Assembly (NCBI RefSeq): GCF_009602465.1
Contig: NZ_WBKP01000016.1
Span: 1-64,000 of the forward strand
Length of the DNA stretch: 64,000 bases
Direction of reading: 5' to 3'
DNA from: Cumulibacter manganitolerans
GTDB taxonomy: Bacteria; Actinomycetota; Actinomycetes; Mycobacteriales; Antricoccaceae
The notes below the pieces were generated by a model that did no database searches, was not told the DNA's origin, and worked only from the letters and a program-made list of their open reading frames with translations. Every line of letters starts with the position of its first letter. The stretch's first letter is position 1. This document shows positions 19,753-25,892 of this stretch, piece by piece. The position numbers and the translations under genes were made by a program.

Positions 19753-20063
19753 CTGGCTCCCTCGTCCTACCGGCGAAACGCCGCGTCACCTCTGTCTACA
19801 CGCAGGGCGCCCGGCGCGACCAGCAGCGGGACCGCTCCTCGGCCCTGGTCGACTGCGGCCTCCGGAAAACCACGAGATTCTGGGACGCTGACCGTTCCGG
19901 GTGGACAGCGGCCCGGAATCGCGACGTAATGCGGGAAGCTCCTTCTACATGGCCGGGCTCGGCGCGTACCGCCAGGTCCTGGAGGACTGCCGCAGCAAGG
20001 AATACCACGGGTTCGCGCTCCGCTGATTGTGTGGCGTGCGGCACATCGGCTTATGGTGTGCTG
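19753..20063. other. 311-bp intergenic region with a possible 41-aa ORF
   Basis: No established gene. An ORF from GTG 19901 to TGA 20026 (41 codons) contains a stretch with normal amino-acid composition (FYMAGLGAYRQVLEDCRSKE) and could be a small protein or the remnant C-terminus of a lost gene. The last 40 bp hold the likely promoter of the sigma/rsb operon. The rest shows nothing recognisable. Confidence 0.4.
20027..20057 (+). promoter_or_regulatory. Possible promoter of the sigma-rsb operon
   Basis: TTGTGT (20027-20032) and TTATGG (20051-20056) are 18 bp apart, and the GTG start at 20064 follows by 7 nt, compatible with a leaderless transcript. No Shine-Dalgarno precedes the start. Confidence 0.35.
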
Positions 20064-21143
20064 GTGACGGAAGCGGGCGCGACGGACAGCCCCGAAGCCG
20101 TGCCCGGTTTCGACCCTGAGGCACTGCTGCCGGTGCTGCGGCGGGTCATCGGCGCTCGGGTCGCCTCGCGACCCGACGCCGAGGACCTCGTCCAGGAGGC
20201 ACTGGCCCGGATGCTCAAGGCGTCCGACCGCATCGACCCGCAGACCGCGGAGGCCTACGCGATCACCACCGCGCGCAACCTGATCGCGACTCGCTGGCGC
20301 GACGAGATGCGCTTTCGAGAACGCCGCCACCAGCTGGTCGAGGTGGACCACGCACCGACACCCGAGGACAGCGCTGTGGACGCCGAGGACGGCCGGCTGA
20401 TGGCCGAGGCGCTCAGCAGGTTCAGCGACGAGGACCGCGCCCTGTTGCTCGCGCACGAGGTGGACGGCGTGCCGAACGCCGAGCTCGCCGACCGCATCGG
20501 CTCGACCGCCGGTGCGGTCGGCGCTCGGCTGCACCGGCTGCGGATGCGGATGCGGGTCGAGTACCTGCTGATCGCCGAGGGCATCGACCCCCCGACGACG
20601 CGGTGCCGCTCGGTGCTCTATGCGCTGGCGAGCAACGACCGTCGGCGGCGCCGCGAGTCCGATGTCGAAGGACACCTCCTGGAGTGCGACACCTGCTACG
20701 CGCTCAGCACTCGGCTGCAGCCGCACGAGACGACCGACGACGGCACGGTCCGGCTCGCCATCGAGCGCGACGCCGACCTGGTCCAGGCCCGCCAGGCCGC
20801 CCGCGAGCTCGCCGCCCACCTCGGTTTCGCCAAGGTCGAGCTCACCGTGATCGCGACCGCGGTCTCGGAGATGGCGCGCAACGTGCTCAAGTTCGCCGGC
20901 AGCGGCACGATCACGCTGAGCGCGCTGGAGCAGGGTCGACGGGGCTTCCGCGTCGTGGTCGCCGACAGAGGGCCCGGCATACCTGATCTCGAGGCGGCAG
21001 TGCGCGACGGCTACAGCACCTACCGCGGCCTCGGCCTCGGCCTCGGCGGCGCGCGCCGCCTGATGGACGAGTTCGACGTCGTGTCCCGACCGGGCCGCGG
21101 CACGATCGTGACCATGACCAAGTGGCTCGAAGGGAACCCGTGA
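20064..21143 (+). CDS. Fusion protein: ECF-type sigma factor + zinc anti-sigma (ZAS-like) motif + RsbT switch kinase
   Basis: 359 aa. Residues 15-90 are sigma region 2 (DAEDLVQEALARM, AYAITTARNLIATRWRDEMR). Residues 105-165 are region 4 (FSDEDRALLLAHEVDGVPNAELADRIG, then a helix-turn-helix ending RLHRLRMRMR). C181 with H204-x3-C208-x2-C211 (HLLECDTC) is a zinc-binding anti-sigma-like motif. Residues 226-359 are a full-length RsbT: SEMARN (N box), DRGPGIPD (G1), GLGLGLGGARRLMDEF (G2), aligning over their whole length with B. subtilis RsbT. A GTG at 20058 is an alternative start. It is coupled by TGATG to rsbR. In the classical pathway RsbT leaves the stressosome and activates the phosphatase RsbU; here the kinase carries its own sigma factor. 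The domain calls are strong; the mechanism is inference. Confidence 0.93.
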   Translation: MTEAGATDSPEAVPGFDPEALLPVLRRVIGARVASRPDAEDLVQEALARMLKASDRIDPQTAEAYAITTARNLIATRWRDEMRFRERRHQLVEVDHAPTPEDSAVDAEDGRLMAEALSRFSDEDRALLLAHEVDGVPNAELADRIGSTAGAVGARLHRLRMRMRVEYLLIAEGIDPPTTRCRSVLYALASNDRRRRRESDVEGHLLECDTCYALSTRLQPHETTDDGTVRLAIERDADLVQARQAARELAAHLGFAKVELTVIATAVSEMARNVLKFAGSGTITLSALEQGRRGFRVVVADRGPGIPDLEAAVRDGYSTYRGLGLGLGGARRLMDEFDVVSRPGRGTIVTMTKWLEGNP

Positions 21144-22033
21144 TGCAGCAGAAGGACAGCTATCCGCAGGACGTCGTCGGCGTCGGCGACGGTACCGGGG
21201 ACGCGCTGCTGGCCGAGCTCGTGGAGCATCTCCGCGAGAACCGGCCGCAGCTGCGCGATACCTGGGCACGCCGCATCGTGGCCGCCCACCTGCTCACCGC
21301 CATGACGCCGGAGGAGATGAACGCCGAGACGCAGTCGGTCTACGACAACTACGTCGACGTGCTCGAGACCGGCAGCGTCGAGGCGCTCAGCGCGTACGCC
21401 CGCGATCTGTCCGAGCGGATCATCCCCCGGGGCGTCGAGACCTACGAGGTGGTCGGCATCGTGCTGCTGCTGCGCGACGTCCTCGCCCGCTCCCTGTTCG
21501 AGAAGTACCGGGCGGACGTCGGGATGCTCAACCAGGTGCTCGACGTCTACGAGCCGGCGGCGAACCGGATCGCCAACACCGTCGCCGTGAGCTTCGTCGA
21601 CGAGAGGGAGCGGGTCATCCGCCAGCAGCAGGCAGCGCTGCGCGAGCTGTCGACGCCCGCGCTGCCGGTCCGCGAGCGGCTGCTCATCCTGCCGATCATC
21701 GGCGTCCTCGACAAGGACCGCGCCAGCCAGCTCACCGAGCAGCTGCTCAACGCCATCCGCAAGCACCGCGCGAAGGTGGTCGTCATGGACATCACCGGCG
21801 CGCCCGAGGTGGACGCCGTCGTCGCGAACCATCTGGTGGGGACGGTGGACGCGTCACGCCTGATGGGCGCGAGCGTCATCATCACCGGAGTGTCCCCGAC
21901 GATCGCCCAGACCCTCGTCACCCTCGGCGTCGATCTGAGCAAGATGAACACCGTCGGGGACCTGCAGGGTGGCTTGGAGGAGGCCGAACGCCTGCTCGGC
22001 TACACGGTGACTCGCCAGGAAGGGATTGCCTGA
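21143..22033 (+). CDS. rsbR: RsbR-type stressosome protein (sensor N-domain + STAS)
   Basis: 296 aa. The N-terminal all-helical sensor domain (1-155) has the non-haem-globin-like RsbR_N pattern (LRENRPQLRDTWARRI). A linker (LRELSTPALPV) leads to a STAS domain (180-285) that aligns without gaps to B. subtilis RsbRA. At the positions of the two phosphorylated threonines, T171 and T205, this protein has Lys191 (GVLDKDRA) and Ala225 (PEVDAVV). The canonical phospho-switch residues are therefore missing. It should form the mixed RsbR:RsbS shell that holds the RsbT domain. The start overlaps the sigma-RsbT stop. The alignment was done from memory of the B. subtilis sequence. Confidence 0.92.
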   Translation: MQQKDSYPQDVVGVGDGTGDALLAELVEHLRENRPQLRDTWARRIVAAHLLTAMTPEEMNAETQSVYDNYVDVLETGSVEALSAYARDLSERIIPRGVETYEVVGIVLLLRDVLARSLFEKYRADVGMLNQVLDVYEPAANRIANTVAVSFVDERERVIRQQQAALRELSTPALPVRERLLILPIIGVLDKDRASQLTEQLLNAIRKHRAKVVVMDITGAPEVDAVVANHLVGTVDASRLMGASVIITGVSPTIAQTLVTLGVDLSKMNTVGDLQGGLEEAERLLGYTVTRQEGIA

Positions 22034-22037
22034 GGGA

Positions 22038-22427
22038 ATGGACGGACCGGCGCTGGTCTCGATCCTGCGCCAGGGTGACACCCTGGTCGCGTCGGTCCAC
22101 ACTGCGCTCGACGACTCCCAGATGCTGCGGTTCCAGCGCGACCTCGTCGAGCAGATCGGCGCCCAGCGCGCACGCGGCGTGATCATCGACGTGGCGGCAC
22201 TCGACGTCCTCGACTCGTTCGCCACCAGCACGTTGTGCGACATCGCGGAGATGGCCAGGCTGCGGGGCGCGCGCACCGTCGTCGTCGGCATCCAGCCCGC
22301 GGTCGCGTTCACGATGGTCCGGCTCGGGATGGCCACACCCCAGTTCGAGGTCGCCCTCGACCTGGACGACGGTCTGGAGATGCTGAGCGCCGACTCCGCC
22401 TCGCCGGCGCCAGGTCGCCGCGGATGA
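22038..22427 (+). CDS. rsbS: RsbS-type stressosome scaffold (single STAS domain)
   Basis: 129 aa, one STAS domain. It has the strongly conserved RsbS signature VLDSFATSTL with Ser60, equivalent to the RsbT-phosphorylated Ser59 of B. subtilis RsbS, and GIQPAVAFTMVRLG downstream. It begins 4 bp after rsbR (TTG 22026 is an in-frame alternative) and overlaps the next gene by ATGA. RsbS with RsbR sequesters RsbT; phosphorylation of this serine releases it. Because RsbR here lacks its own threonines, Ser60 is the only canonical phospho-site left in the module. Confidence 0.94.
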   Translation: MDGPALVSILRQGDTLVASVHTALDDSQMLRFQRDLVEQIGAQRARGVIIDVAALDVLDSFATSTLCDIAEMARLRGARTVVVGIQPAVAFTMVRLGMATPQFEVALDLDDGLEMLSADSASPAPGRRG

Positions 22428-22774
22428 ACGACTACGACGCGAGCGACGATCCGCTCGAGGCGCTGCGGCGCGACTATCGGGTCGCCTTCCTCCGCTATCT
22501 GCCGCACGCCGACGAGGCGGCCCTCGCCACTGCGTACGACATCGGGCGGCGGGTGCTCCCCGCCGACCTCGGTCTGCTGCACGTCGTCCACGTGCACCAC
22601 GAGGTGCTCGGCGAGGTGCTCGCCGCCGAACGGCCGGAGCAGTGGGAGCACCTCGTGCAGGCCGCCGGCGAGTTCATGAGCGAGGTGCTCGCCGCGATGC
22701 ACATGATCCAGCGCCCCCCTCGGCGCGGACGACTGAACGCCCGTACGCCGACGCGCGGAAGGCGTGACGCGTGA
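22424..22774 (+). CDS. Stand-alone RsbU N-terminal (RsbT-binding) domain without phosphatase
   Basis: 116 aa. Residues 8-90 match the helical kinase-recruitment domain of RsbU (YRVAFLRYL, DEAALATAYDIGRRVL, LGLLHVVHVHHEVLGEVL). The protein ends shortly after in a basic tail (RPPRRGRLNARTPTRGRR) with no PP2C domain. In B. subtilis this domain dimerises and binds RsbT to switch on the phosphatase. Here it overlaps rsbS by 4 nt and can only act as a docking partner or dimerising clamp for the RsbT part of the sigma fusion, or as a DNA-binding helper through its tail. The domain call is from sequence similarity; the role is inference. Confidence 0.82.
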   Translation: MNDYDASDDPLEALRRDYRVAFLRYLPHADEAALATAYDIGRRVLPADLGLLHVVHVHHEVLGEVLAAERPEQWEHLVQAAGEFMSEVLAAMHMIQRPPRRGRLNARTPTRGRRDA

Positions 22775-22791
22775 CACGCCGACGATTTTTT
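22761..22791 (+). terminator. Terminator of the sigma-rsb operon
   Basis: GGCGTG (22761-22766) pairs with CACGCC (22775-22780) across an 8-nt loop, followed by GACGA and six T. The hairpin spans the stop codon of the RsbU_N gene, so no further rsb gene belongs to the transcript. Confidence 0.65.
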
Positions 22792-22902
22792 CTGCCGTTC
22801 GCCGCCATCCGCCGGTAATGCCGCAGGGCTGCCGACGTCTTCATCGGTGTGCTCGGAGACGCCGGGCCCGCAGGCAGAGCAGTATCGAAGGAGCGCACCA
22901 CA

Positions 22903-23436
22903 ATGAACCTCCGTAATCGACTTACCACCGTCATCGCGACCGCCGCCCTCGCGGGAGGTGGCGTACTGCTACCGGCCGTCGCCGCCAACGCCGCCCCGGC
23001 TCCCAACAGTGCCGCCGCCGCGGCGGCTCTCAACAGCACGCTGCCGGTGACCGGCACCCTCGGCGACGGCAGCGCCTTCACCGGCACGCTGTCGAACCTC
23101 ACGACGTCCGTCGTCGGCGGCGTCCTGCAGCTCACGGGCACGCTCACCAGCACCGCCCTGCCGGGCGGGAGCGGCACCTTCACCGTCCCCCTGAACCTCG
23201 CCGACATGTCGGGGTCGTGCCCGGTGCTCACGCTCAACCTCGGGCCGCTGGACCTCGACCTGCTCGGGCTGACCGTCCACCTCGACGAGGTGAACCTCGA
23301 CGTCACCGCGGTGCCGGGCGCGGGCAACCTGCTGGGCAACCTGCTGTGCGCGGTGACCCACCTGCTCGACAACAACGGGCCGGTCACGGGCATCAGCGCG
23401 CTGCTGAACCGGCTGCTCACCGGCCTCGGCCTCTAG
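22903..23436 (+). CDS. Secreted hypothetical protein
   Basis: 177 aa, start ATG 22903 with AAGGAG. It has a signal peptide (TTVIATAALAGGGVLLPAVA, then an ANA|AP-type cleavage site near residue 31). The mature part alternates Thr/Gly/Leu-rich strands (GTLSNLTTSVVGGVLQLTGT) and ends with a Leu-rich helix. Two cysteines (SCPVL and LLCAV) may form a disulfide. This type of small secreted actinobacterial protein has no known function; I recognise no motif. It is monocistronic, between the rsb terminator and the phosphofructokinase gene. Confidence 0.8.
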   Translation: MNLRNRLTTVIATAALAGGGVLLPAVAANAAPAPNSAAAAAALNSTLPVTGTLGDGSAFTGTLSNLTTSVVGGVLQLTGTLTSTALPGGSGTFTVPLNLADMSGSCPVLTLNLGPLDLDLLGLTVHLDEVNLDVTAVPGAGNLLGNLLCAVTHLLDNNGPVTGISALLNRLLTGLGL

Positions 23437-23594: not shown

Positions 23595-25892
23595 GTGCCC
23601 GAGATCAGCACCCCGGTCAGGATCGGCGTCCTCACCTCCGGCGGCGACGCCCCCGGCATGAACGCGGCGCTGCGTGCCGTCGTGCGCTCCGGGCTGAATG
23701 CCGGCGCCGAGATGTTCGCCGTCCACGAAGGCTGGCAGGGCGCGGTCAACGGCGGCGCGCAGATCGTGCCGATGGGGTGGGAAGACGTCTCCGGCATCCT
23801 GCAGCTCGGCGGCACCGTCATCGGCACCGCGCGCTGCGCCGAGTTCCGCGACCGCGCCGGACGCCGCGCGGCCGTCCGCAACCTCCTCGACCGAGGCATC
23901 GACCGGCTCGTCGTCATCGGCGGCGACGGCTCGCTGACCGGCGCCGATCAGCTGCGCGCCGAGTGGAGCGGGCTGCTCGACGAGCTGGTGGCTGCCGGCG
24001 AACTCGCGCCGGAGCTGCGGGAGCGGCATCCGCGGCTGATGCTCGTCGGCCTGGTCGGATCGATCGACAACGACATGGTCGGCACCGAGATGACCATCGG
24101 CACCGATTCCGCGCTGCACCGCATCACCGACGCCATCGACGCGATCTCCTCGACCGCCGCCAGCCACCAGCGCGCCTTCATCATCGAGGTGATGGGCCGT
24201 AACTGTGGCTACCTGGCGGTGATGAGTGCCCTGGCGGGCGGTGCGGACTACGTCTTCGTGCCCGAGGCACCGCCCGGGCCAGACTGGCCGGAGCGGATGT
24301 GTGCCGTGATCCGCCGGGCCCGTGAGGCGGGACGACGCGACTCGATCATCGTCGTGGCCGAAGGAGCCGTCGACCTGAGCGGTGCCCGGATCACCTGCGA
24401 CCAGGTCCGCGTCGCCGTCCAGGAGGGGCTCGGGCAGGACGCCCGCATCACCGACCTCGGCCACGTCCAGCGCGGGGGTACGCCCAGCGCCTACGACCGC
24501 TGGATGGCCTCGGTGGTCGGGGTGGCTGCCACGGAGGCGCTGCTGAACGCGGACGCCGGCACCGAGCCCGTGGTGCTCGGCGTCCAGCGCAACGAGGTGG
24601 TGCGCCGACCCCTCATGGAGGCGGTCGAGGAGACCCGGGCGGTCCCCGCGCTCATGGCCGGCGGACGCAGCGCCGAGGCGGTCGCCGCGCGGGGCCCCGG
24701 TTTCGGCCGCTCCCTTCGAATCTTCCAGGCCATCTCGGAGGCCGATCCCACCGTCGAGCCGGCGGTACCGGCCAAGCGGATTGCCATCGTGCACGCCGGC
24801 GGCCTCGCGCCGGGGATGAACACCGCGGTCTGGGCCGCCGTCCGCCTCGGCATCGACGCCGGGCACCGGATGGCCGGGATCCAGGGCGGCTTCCCGGGGT
24901 TCTGCCGCGGAGACGTCGTGGATCTCGAGTGGGGCGATGTCGAGGGCTGGGTCTCCCGCGGAGGTGCCGAGCTCGGGACGCGCCGCTCGATCCCCGACGG
25001 TGCCGCCTTGGAGCAGATCGCGCGGACGATCGAGCGCCGCGACATCGACGCGCTGCTGGTCGTCGGCGGCTACAACGCCTACGAGGCGGTCCGCCTGATG
25101 GTCTCCGAGCGCGACCGTCTGGCTGCCTTCCGGCTCCCGATCGCGTTGCTCCCGGCGAGCATCGACAACAACCTGCCGGGCTGGAAGATGGCGATCGGCG
25201 CCGACTCCGCTCTCGGTGTTGCCACCGAGGCCCTCGACCGGGTGAAGCAGTCGGCGTCGGCGCACCGCCGCTGCTTCGTCGTCGAGACGATGGGCCGCTC
25301 CTGCGGCTTCCTCGCGCTCATGAGCGGGCTGACCTCCGGCGCCGAGCGGGTCTACCTGCACGAGGACGGCATCGATCTCAGCCGGCTGGAGTCCGACGTC
25401 CGCCAGATGCGCGCCGCGTTCGAGCAAGGCCGCCGCTTCCACCTCGCGATCCGCAACGAGGAGGCCGACCCCTACTACACGACCGACGTGCTCGCCCGGC
25501 TGTTCGAGGCCGAGAGCGGCGGCCGGTACGACGTACGCACCCTCGTCATCGGGCATGTGCAGGAAGGCCCGAGCCCCAGCCCGTTCGACCGGATGACGGC
25601 CGCCCGGCTCGCCGCCGCCGGCATCCGGTTCCTGTCCGACCGGCTCGCGGACGGGAGCGACGACGCGGTGTTCGCCGCCGAGAGCAGCGACGGCACGACG
25701 ATGCTCCCGGTCGCCGAGCTGGACGGGCTCGTCGATCCGGTTCACCGGCGGCCCGTGGATCAGTGGTGGCACCGGCTGCGGGGAACCGCCGCGGCGATCA
25801 ACGAGCGCAGCTTCGTCGAGCACGACACGGCGAGGCCGCCCGGGCGGTCGCATTCGATCTGGCCCGGAGTGCACCGCAAGTTTCGAGGCTGA
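23595..25892 (+). CDS. Duplicated, eukaryotic-type 6-phosphofructokinase
   Basis: 765 aa, twice the normal bacterial length, GTG start with GGAGAGGA upstream. The N-half is catalytic: GGDAPGMN (16-23), GGDGSL (109-114, the Gly that marks ATP-dependent enzymes), GSIDND (155-160, catalytic D158) and MGRNCGY (200-206). The C-half repeats the fold, but the corresponding motifs are degenerate (GGLAPGMN, GGYNAY, ASIDNN, MGRSCGF), exactly the catalytic/regulatory split of animal and fungal PFK-1. Strings such as LVGSIDNDMVGTEMTIGTDS and GHVQRGGTPSA are close to human PFKM. It phosphorylates fructose 6-phosphate in glycolysis; the second half is expected to be an effector-binding domain. A TAGACT -10 at 23553 is likely. 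Confidence 0.93.
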   Translation: MPEISTPVRIGVLTSGGDAPGMNAALRAVVRSGLNAGAEMFAVHEGWQGAVNGGAQIVPMGWEDVSGILQLGGTVIGTARCAEFRDRAGRRAAVRNLLDRGIDRLVVIGGDGSLTGADQLRAEWSGLLDELVAAGELAPELRERHPRLMLVGLVGSIDNDMVGTEMTIGTDSALHRITDAIDAISSTAASHQRAFIIEVMGRNCGYLAVMSALAGGADYVFVPEAPPGPDWPERMCAVIRRAREAGRRDSIIVVAEGAVDLSGARITCDQVRVAVQEGLGQDARITDLGHVQRGGTPSAYDRWMASVVGVAATEALLNADAGTEPVVLGVQRNEVVRRPLMEAVEETRAVPALMAGGRSAEAVAARGPGFGRSLRIFQAISEADPTVEPAVPAKRIAIVHAGGLAPGMNTAVWAAVRLGIDAGHRMAGIQGGFPGFCRGDVVDLEWGDVEGWVSRGGAELGTRRSIPDGAALEQIARTIERRDIDALLVVGGYNAYEAVRLMVSERDRLAAFRLPIALLPASIDNNLPGWKMAIGADSALGVATEALDRVKQSASAHRRCFVVETMGRSCGFLALMSGLTSGAERVYLHEDGIDLSRLESDVRQMRAAFEQGRRFHLAIRNEEADPYYTTDVLARLFEAESGGRYDVRTLVIGHVQEGPSPSPFDRMTAARLAAAGIRFLSDRLADGSDDAVFAAESSDGTTMLPVAELDGLVDPVHRRPVDQWWHRLRGTAAAINERSFVEHDTARPPGRSHSIWPGVHRKFRG

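Follow-up and report, generated by a model that had tools for sequence, protein, structure and literature searches.

The sigma-zinc-RsbT fusion heads a four-gene operon

The window, that is, the whole 64,000-nucleotide stretch of Cumulibacter manganitolerans DNA that was analysed, carries the following features.

20052..20057, + strand: -10-like element TATGGT (leaderless-type promoter), directly 5' of the GTG of the fusion gene
20064..21143, + strand: sigma-zinc-RsbT fusion ORF, 359 aa, GTG start at 20064 and stop at 21143
20121..20312, + strand: sigma region 2 (Sigma70_r2), aa 20-83 (Pfam 2.4e-13)
20400..20552, + strand: sigma region 4 (Sigma70_r4_2), aa 113-163 (Pfam 1.1e-6)
20580..20723, + strand: ZAS-like segment, C181/H204/C208/C211 and four short helices (from invariant residues, position and predicted helices)
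20736..21134, + strand: RsbT kinase domain, aa 225-357 (HATPase_c_2 at aa 237-353, 2.8e-15; tree; residues)
21143..22033, + strand: RsbR-type co-antagonist, RsbRD_N-like N-terminus and STAS domain (STAS 2.4e-13)
22038..22427, + strand: RsbS-type STAS protein; matches B. subtilis RsbS at 7.2e-26 and has the phospho-serine, Ser60
22424..22774, + strand: free RsbU_N domain (RsbT-docking) with no phosphatase (PF08673, 1.1e-9)
22761..22780, + strand: terminator-like hairpin and T-run at the operon end (1 found against 0.7 expected, near chance)
22815..22843, + strand: promoter-like motif GTAATG-N16-GTCTTCA (profile E 6.2e-5)
22903..23436, + strand: small secreted protein, predicted to be controlled by the fused sigma factor (homologues lie behind the same motif elsewhere)

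The first-pass annotation had described a sigma factor, a zinc motif and RsbT in one polypeptide within a stressosome operon, and the Pfam domains, the reading frame and full-length homologues bear out this description. It had overlooked the fourth gene of the operon, the terminator, the promoter motif (22815-22843) and, downstream of that motif, the gene for the secreted protein. The fusion contains sigma2 and sigma4 without sigma1 or sigma3, as ECF (group 4) sigma factors do (TIGR02937, 4.2e-20), and the columns of the DLVQE core-binding motif in sigma region 2 (D41-E45) are invariant in the homologue alignment. Compared with PDB sequences, the full-length fusion gave ordinary ECF and SpoIIAB matches, and the AlphaFold model (pTM 0.42) left the arrangement of the domains unfixed. 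The start codon is supported because the homologues are mostly 358-360 aa long and because the -10 element lies at a fixed distance from it; TANNNT with its first T 11-14 nt ahead of the fusion start was found in 25 of 32 homologous loci, against 0.25 expected from shuffles. Since this element stands immediately 5' of the start, a basal leaderless transcript of the fusion gene is likely.

We searched 399 genomes of the same order for homologues. The whole fusion protein was present in 27 of them, the window's genome included, and the 26 others encode it at 50-57% identity over ~340 aa with no internal stops; 154 genomes matched in total, mostly over stand-alone RsbT alone. Further full-length fusions were found in Intrasporangiaceae (Humibacillus and a Tetrasphaera MAG), in a Nocardioidaceae MAG and in other families of the class and the phylum, which brings the tally for several actinobacterial families to about 36 distinct genomes. 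The distribution is patchy, for the fusion is missing from two genomes of the same genus and from two of the same family. The first-pass annotation had named a sequencing frameshift between two genes as the finding that would undo the fusion. The fusion withstood this check, and a joining of two genes through sequencing or assembly error, which is refuted by the identical full-length architecture in about 36 genomes, has in our judgement practically no chance of being right. The gene order fusion-RsbR-RsbS-RsbU_N was the same in all 27 loci, mostly with 4-bp ATGA overlaps, and also occurs in other actinobacteria.

The kinase domain is of the RsbT type

The C-terminal module had been annotated as a full-length RsbT, a claim open to refutation if the domain clustered with RsbW-type kinases. 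A tree built from 105 domains placed the fusions inside RsbT, grouping with stand-alone RsbT, and split them from the RsbW type by the deepest branch (support 100); the RsbW branches are long, and the size of this distance calls for caution. The module is a complete RsbT-type GHKL kinase with intact ATP-binding residues and is ~50% identical to the stand-alone RsbT of RsbRST operons. The N-box residues E269 and N273 and the G1 residue D301 are invariant across fusions and stand-alone RsbT, the G1 box reading D301-x-GPGI in the fusion. The RsbT residues that contact RsbU are R19, R23, N24 and D92 (PMC12143880). In the fusion alignment R243 and R247 are invariant and D315 is nearly so. By motif position, we take R243/R247/E248/D315 of the fusion to be the equivalents of B. 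subtilis RsbT R19/R23/N24/D92.

We also considered whether the kinase could be a cis-acting anti-sigma domain of the RsbW/SpoIIAB type, with the sigma part as its ligand. Among solved structures, SpoIIAB and RsbW are indeed the closest to the kinase part, but no RsbT appeared among them, and hence these neighbours are not decisive. The phylogeny, the ~50% identity to RsbT as against weak RsbW matches, and the RsbR/RsbS pair adjoining the fusion gene all argue against this explanation, and the NCBIfam RsbW and SpoIIAB models scored the fusion kinase far under their cut-offs. We rejected an RsbW-type identity because of the placement in the tree, and regard a cis anti-sigma kinase as quite improbable.

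RsbR and RsbS of a predicted stressosome module

The second and third genes provide an RsbR, with a sensory N-domain and a STAS domain, and a separate RsbS STAS protein. Residues 28-294 of RsbR align with solved stressosome RsbR (2.4e-34), and its Pfam RsbRD_N match lies under the curated cut-off (21.7 against 24.3 bits). Ser60 of RsbS, a phosphorylatable serine equivalent to B. subtilis Ser59, is invariant in 27/27 loci. The position of RsbR Thr205 holds Glu in 23 loci, Ala in 3 and Gln in 1, and never Ser or Thr, and the Thr171 position holds Ser or Thr in 15 of 27. The window's RsbR has Lys at the Thr171 position and Ala at the Thr205 position (position 225, 21815-21817). It thus lacks both phosphorylatable threonines, a trait that is not decisive because the stand-alone-RsbT relatives vary too, with Ser in place of Thr205 in 12 of 19. 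Because Ser60 is invariant and the RsbR sites are variable, RsbS is the likely substrate of the kinase. From the Glu at the Thr205 position we infer that RsbR may be partly fixed in a phospho-mimic state.

Strong conservation of the RsbR N-domain was considered as a trait specific to the fusion loci and was rejected, since Acidobacteria with stand-alone RsbT share it. No RsbX-like reset phosphatase was found within the operon. Genes for RsbV, RsbW and the phosphatase are likewise absent from it, as the gene content confirms for the first-pass annotation.

RsbU_N is free of any effector domain

The fourth gene encodes an RsbU_N domain by itself, and each fusion locus that extends this far has such an RsbU_N-only partner. 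Its model is a four-helix bundle (mean pLDDT 85), for which Foldseek ranked the RsbU_N structures 2j6y and 1w53 second and third with weak E-values (0.1). Nine residues are invariant over 27 sequences, including E31, which aligns with E24 of RsbU, a residue that contacts RsbT. The tail varies among the loci and is modelled with low confidence, and the protein has no counterpart of the RsbU linker, with which RsbT also makes contact.

This domain is the only RsbU_N in the genome, and the only PP2C match of the genome, a PP2C-HATPase-STAS protein (C15:34421-35002, L186), has no RsbU_N. For these reasons an output through a distant RsbU was rejected. The canonical sigmaB arrangement, in which an RsbU phosphatase, RsbV and RsbW stand between RsbT and the sigma factor, is not present.

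At stand-alone RsbT loci with the same RsbR subfamily, RsbU_N heads larger effector proteins that carry a SpoIIE/PP2C phosphatase or a histidine kinase. We scanned eight candidate RsbU_N-headed proteins from such loci. Three, of the mycobacterial type, have RsbU_N heading PAS-PP2C-RsbW, and four are RsbU_N-histidine kinases, some with PAS, that adjoin RsbRST in Acidobacteria, a Bacteroidetes MAG and Chloroflexi (L080, L082, L091 and L092); the eighth was an RsbR. RsbU_N is thus joined to an effector where RsbT stands alone and is bare where RsbT is fused, which suggests that the effector moved from RsbU_N to RsbT. By this comparison of loci, effector fusion to RsbT is accompanied by effector loss from RsbU_N. 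The first-pass annotation supposed that release from RsbR/RsbS could directly free or relocalise the sigma factor. That picture is incomplete: because fusion loci encode a dedicated RsbU_N partner, release is probably a partner switch onto RsbU_N and not simple freedom.

The zinc segment and its relatives

All four residues singled out in the first-pass annotation, C181, H204, C208 and C211, proved invariant in 27/27 full-length homologues, and the spacing H-x3-C-x2-C with the upstream ligand C181 is that of the ZAS motif. The helices of the segment were modelled at pLDDT about 80-92. Because a Pfam scan gave no zinc-finger match in the fusion protein, the name ZAS rests on the motif, the position and the predicted helices. 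The AlphaFold model was unusable, with its low pTM, as proof that the zinc segment covers sigma2 and sigma4.

In a related protein family (L084, L180-L185, and L072, which is interrupted at a contig end), the sigma-zinc core, up to 44% identical, is followed not by RsbT but by a hydrophobic stretch, probably membrane-spanning, and a conserved C-terminal domain. Hydrophobic helices were found in most members, and the C-terminal domain reads ANEGFWVG...VWVQL.... In a quick sigma-zinc tree, the fusion and membrane families group in a single clade to the exclusion of other ECF factors (support 97), in which the membrane family branches among the fusion lineages. The fused sigma-ZAS-membrane factors ECF48/52/53 (PMC8999054), such as SCO4117, resemble the fusion in that sigma2 and sigma4 are followed by a zinc anti-sigma-like segment in cis, and they are thought to be cis-inhibited and freed through proteolysis (PMC8999054; PMC5826349). 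They differ in having a membrane helix and an extracytoplasmic domain where the fusion has RsbT. Given these factors and the related membrane family, it is plausible that the zinc segment acts as a cis brake on the sigma factor.

A promoter-like motif accompanies the fusion

Of the 27 loci, 24 have the promoter-like consensus GTCAT(G/C)-N16-GTCTTCA next to the operon, where it precedes small secreted proteins; the other three lack it. Near the fusion loci, GTNAT(G/C)-N16-(G/C)TCTTCA occurred 23 times at a spacer of 16, once at 18, and never at 13, 14, 15, 17 or 19. A matrix built from 22 sites placed a site within 760 bp of the operon in the same 24 loci, and 100 column-shuffled matrices gave 0. 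In 1.03 Mb taken from other loci, chance matches reached no more than 10.2; one further fusion locus there scored 26.5. The motif evidence comes largely from one family, Geodermatophilaceae.

We then scanned 40 genomes, 18 with and 22 without the fusion, with the profile. All 16 matches with E below 0.001 were in fusion genomes and the best match without the fusion was 0.004, a separation that the training sites inflate. Matches outside the training set include G348:C2, G372:1885840, G360:117436, G241:C17 and G405:C35. Some sites unlinked to the operon precede genes homologous to the targets that lie beside it. In G145 (C2, E 0.015, weaker than 0.001) the site precedes a secreted protein (78% identity, 3e-54), in G241 a small helical protein (5e-11), and in G405 a further small protein (53%, 3e-42).

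The motif of the window is the sole strict match in the 3.9-Mb genome. The strict motif search gave too few sites for a wide regulon, and with one in the own genome the regulon of the fused sigma factor appears narrow. The secreted-protein gene recurs beside the operon in other families, in differing orientations, and beyond the four operon genes it is the main neighbour that recurs between families. Further downstream, at 23595-25892, a single 765-aa ORF looks like a tandem of two phosphofructokinase-like halves.

Several Geodermatophilaceae have a site on the fusion's own strand, 311-517 bp upstream of its gene and ahead of a small helical ORF, which suggests autoregulation of the fusion operon in these species. 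The small helical ORF behind the motif is ~68-147 aa long by longest start (L048-L050, L058, L062, L065, L066, L068 and L253), and that of L253 had no significant Pfam match. Four Modestobacter-like loci (L047-L050) have a strong motif 170-220 bp away that is aimed at the 3' end of the operon, and no secreted gene is evident behind it; the motif may be antisense or mark a decayed target.

Proposed mechanism

We propose a shortened stressosome pathway in which a stressosome-tethered, zinc-braked sigma factor is released to RsbU_N, and we put the probability of this whole reading at about 0.6. The RsbT end would dock the fusion protein onto the RsbR/RsbS complex, while the zinc segment beside sigma4 would hold the sigma factor inactive in cis. 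Upon stress, the kinase would phosphorylate Ser60 of RsbS and detach, and the detached fusion would bind the RsbU_N dimer encoded by the same operon. This exchange would lift the brake, or keep the fusion protein off the stressosome. The sigma factor could then load RNA polymerase at promoters of the form GTCAT(G/C)-N16-GTCTTCA that serve genes for small secreted or membrane proteins and, in several Geodermatophilaceae, might also act at the promoter of its own operon. RsbV, RsbW and the phosphatase relay would not be needed. The gene content, the conserved residues, the motif and its link to the fusion come from computation, while the tethering, the zinc brake and the role and direction of RsbU_N in this scheme are what we infer.

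The main rival holds that the RsbU_N-only protein is a negative partner, or sink. It would capture the fusion protein once released, or compete for the RsbT domain, and prevent the sigma factor from reaching RNA polymerase, giving the operon two brakes. A bare docking domain with no effector of its own could be a sink, and its tail is variable and modelled with low confidence. In described outputs, however, RsbT binding to RsbU_N is the activating step (PMC12143880), and a brake is already offered by the zinc segment. We consider a sink unlikely, though the least unlikely of the rivals. It could also be argued that RsbT is a mere docking tag, the sigma factor being constitutively stored on the stressosome and the kinase activity irrelevant. 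The equivalent of RsbR Thr205, which in the 27 loci is Glu 23 times and in no case Ser or Thr, would fit such a role, but the N-box and G1 residues and Ser60 of RsbS are invariant, and we give the docking tag little credence.

Relation to known stressosome pathways

The operon resembles the RsbRST-RsbU-RsbV-RsbW-sigmaB pathway of B. subtilis and Listeria in its RsbR, its RsbS with a phospho-serine, its RsbT and its RsbU_N. It differs in that RsbT is fused to an ECF sigma factor, RsbU_N is free with no phosphatase, RsbV and RsbW are absent from the operon and the RsbR Thr205 equivalent is never Ser or Thr. Other described stressosome outputs are a diguanylate cyclase (Moorella), a two-component system (Vibrio) and RsbU_N-histidine kinases (PMC12143880, PMC9237108). 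These share RsbT with RsbU_N as the output joint, but their effector is on RsbU_N, or undefined, whereas here it is on RsbT. The mycobacterial stressosome with an RsbUW fusion (PMC8115616; L154-L156, L159-L163) has a closely related RsbR subfamily and RsbT, and its output is an RsbU_N-PAS-PP2C-RsbW protein where the present operon has a sigma factor.

Among the publications found, a 2022 review (PMC8999054) catalogues ECF factors that have regulatory extensions. A sigma-RsbT fusion was not found in the literature searched, and an earlier listing in the ECF re-classification (10.1093/nar/gkaa1229) is possible. The modules are all known; their wiring and the promoter class appear to be undescribed. 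Our view of what would be new is that the released stressosome subunit is the transcription factor itself, with kinase, zinc-braked sigma factor and docking module on a single chain, that a phosphatase-free RsbU_N dimer takes it over from the RsbR/RsbS core and co-activates it, that the effector moved from RsbU_N to RsbT and that a dedicated promoter class is served; we hold this combination tentatively, at a little under even odds.

If the proposed pathway is correct, a stressosome would feed transcription without a phosphatase and anti-anti-sigma relay. The coupling of sensing to output in stressosomes is hard to dissect because the sigmaB cascade is long; here, release of the kinase and transcription would coincide in a single event that a motif-bearing reporter could read out. 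It would also be a case of rewiring at the level of domains, with the effector on RsbT rather than on RsbU_N, and with RsbT standing where a membrane segment otherwise follows the sigma-zinc core.
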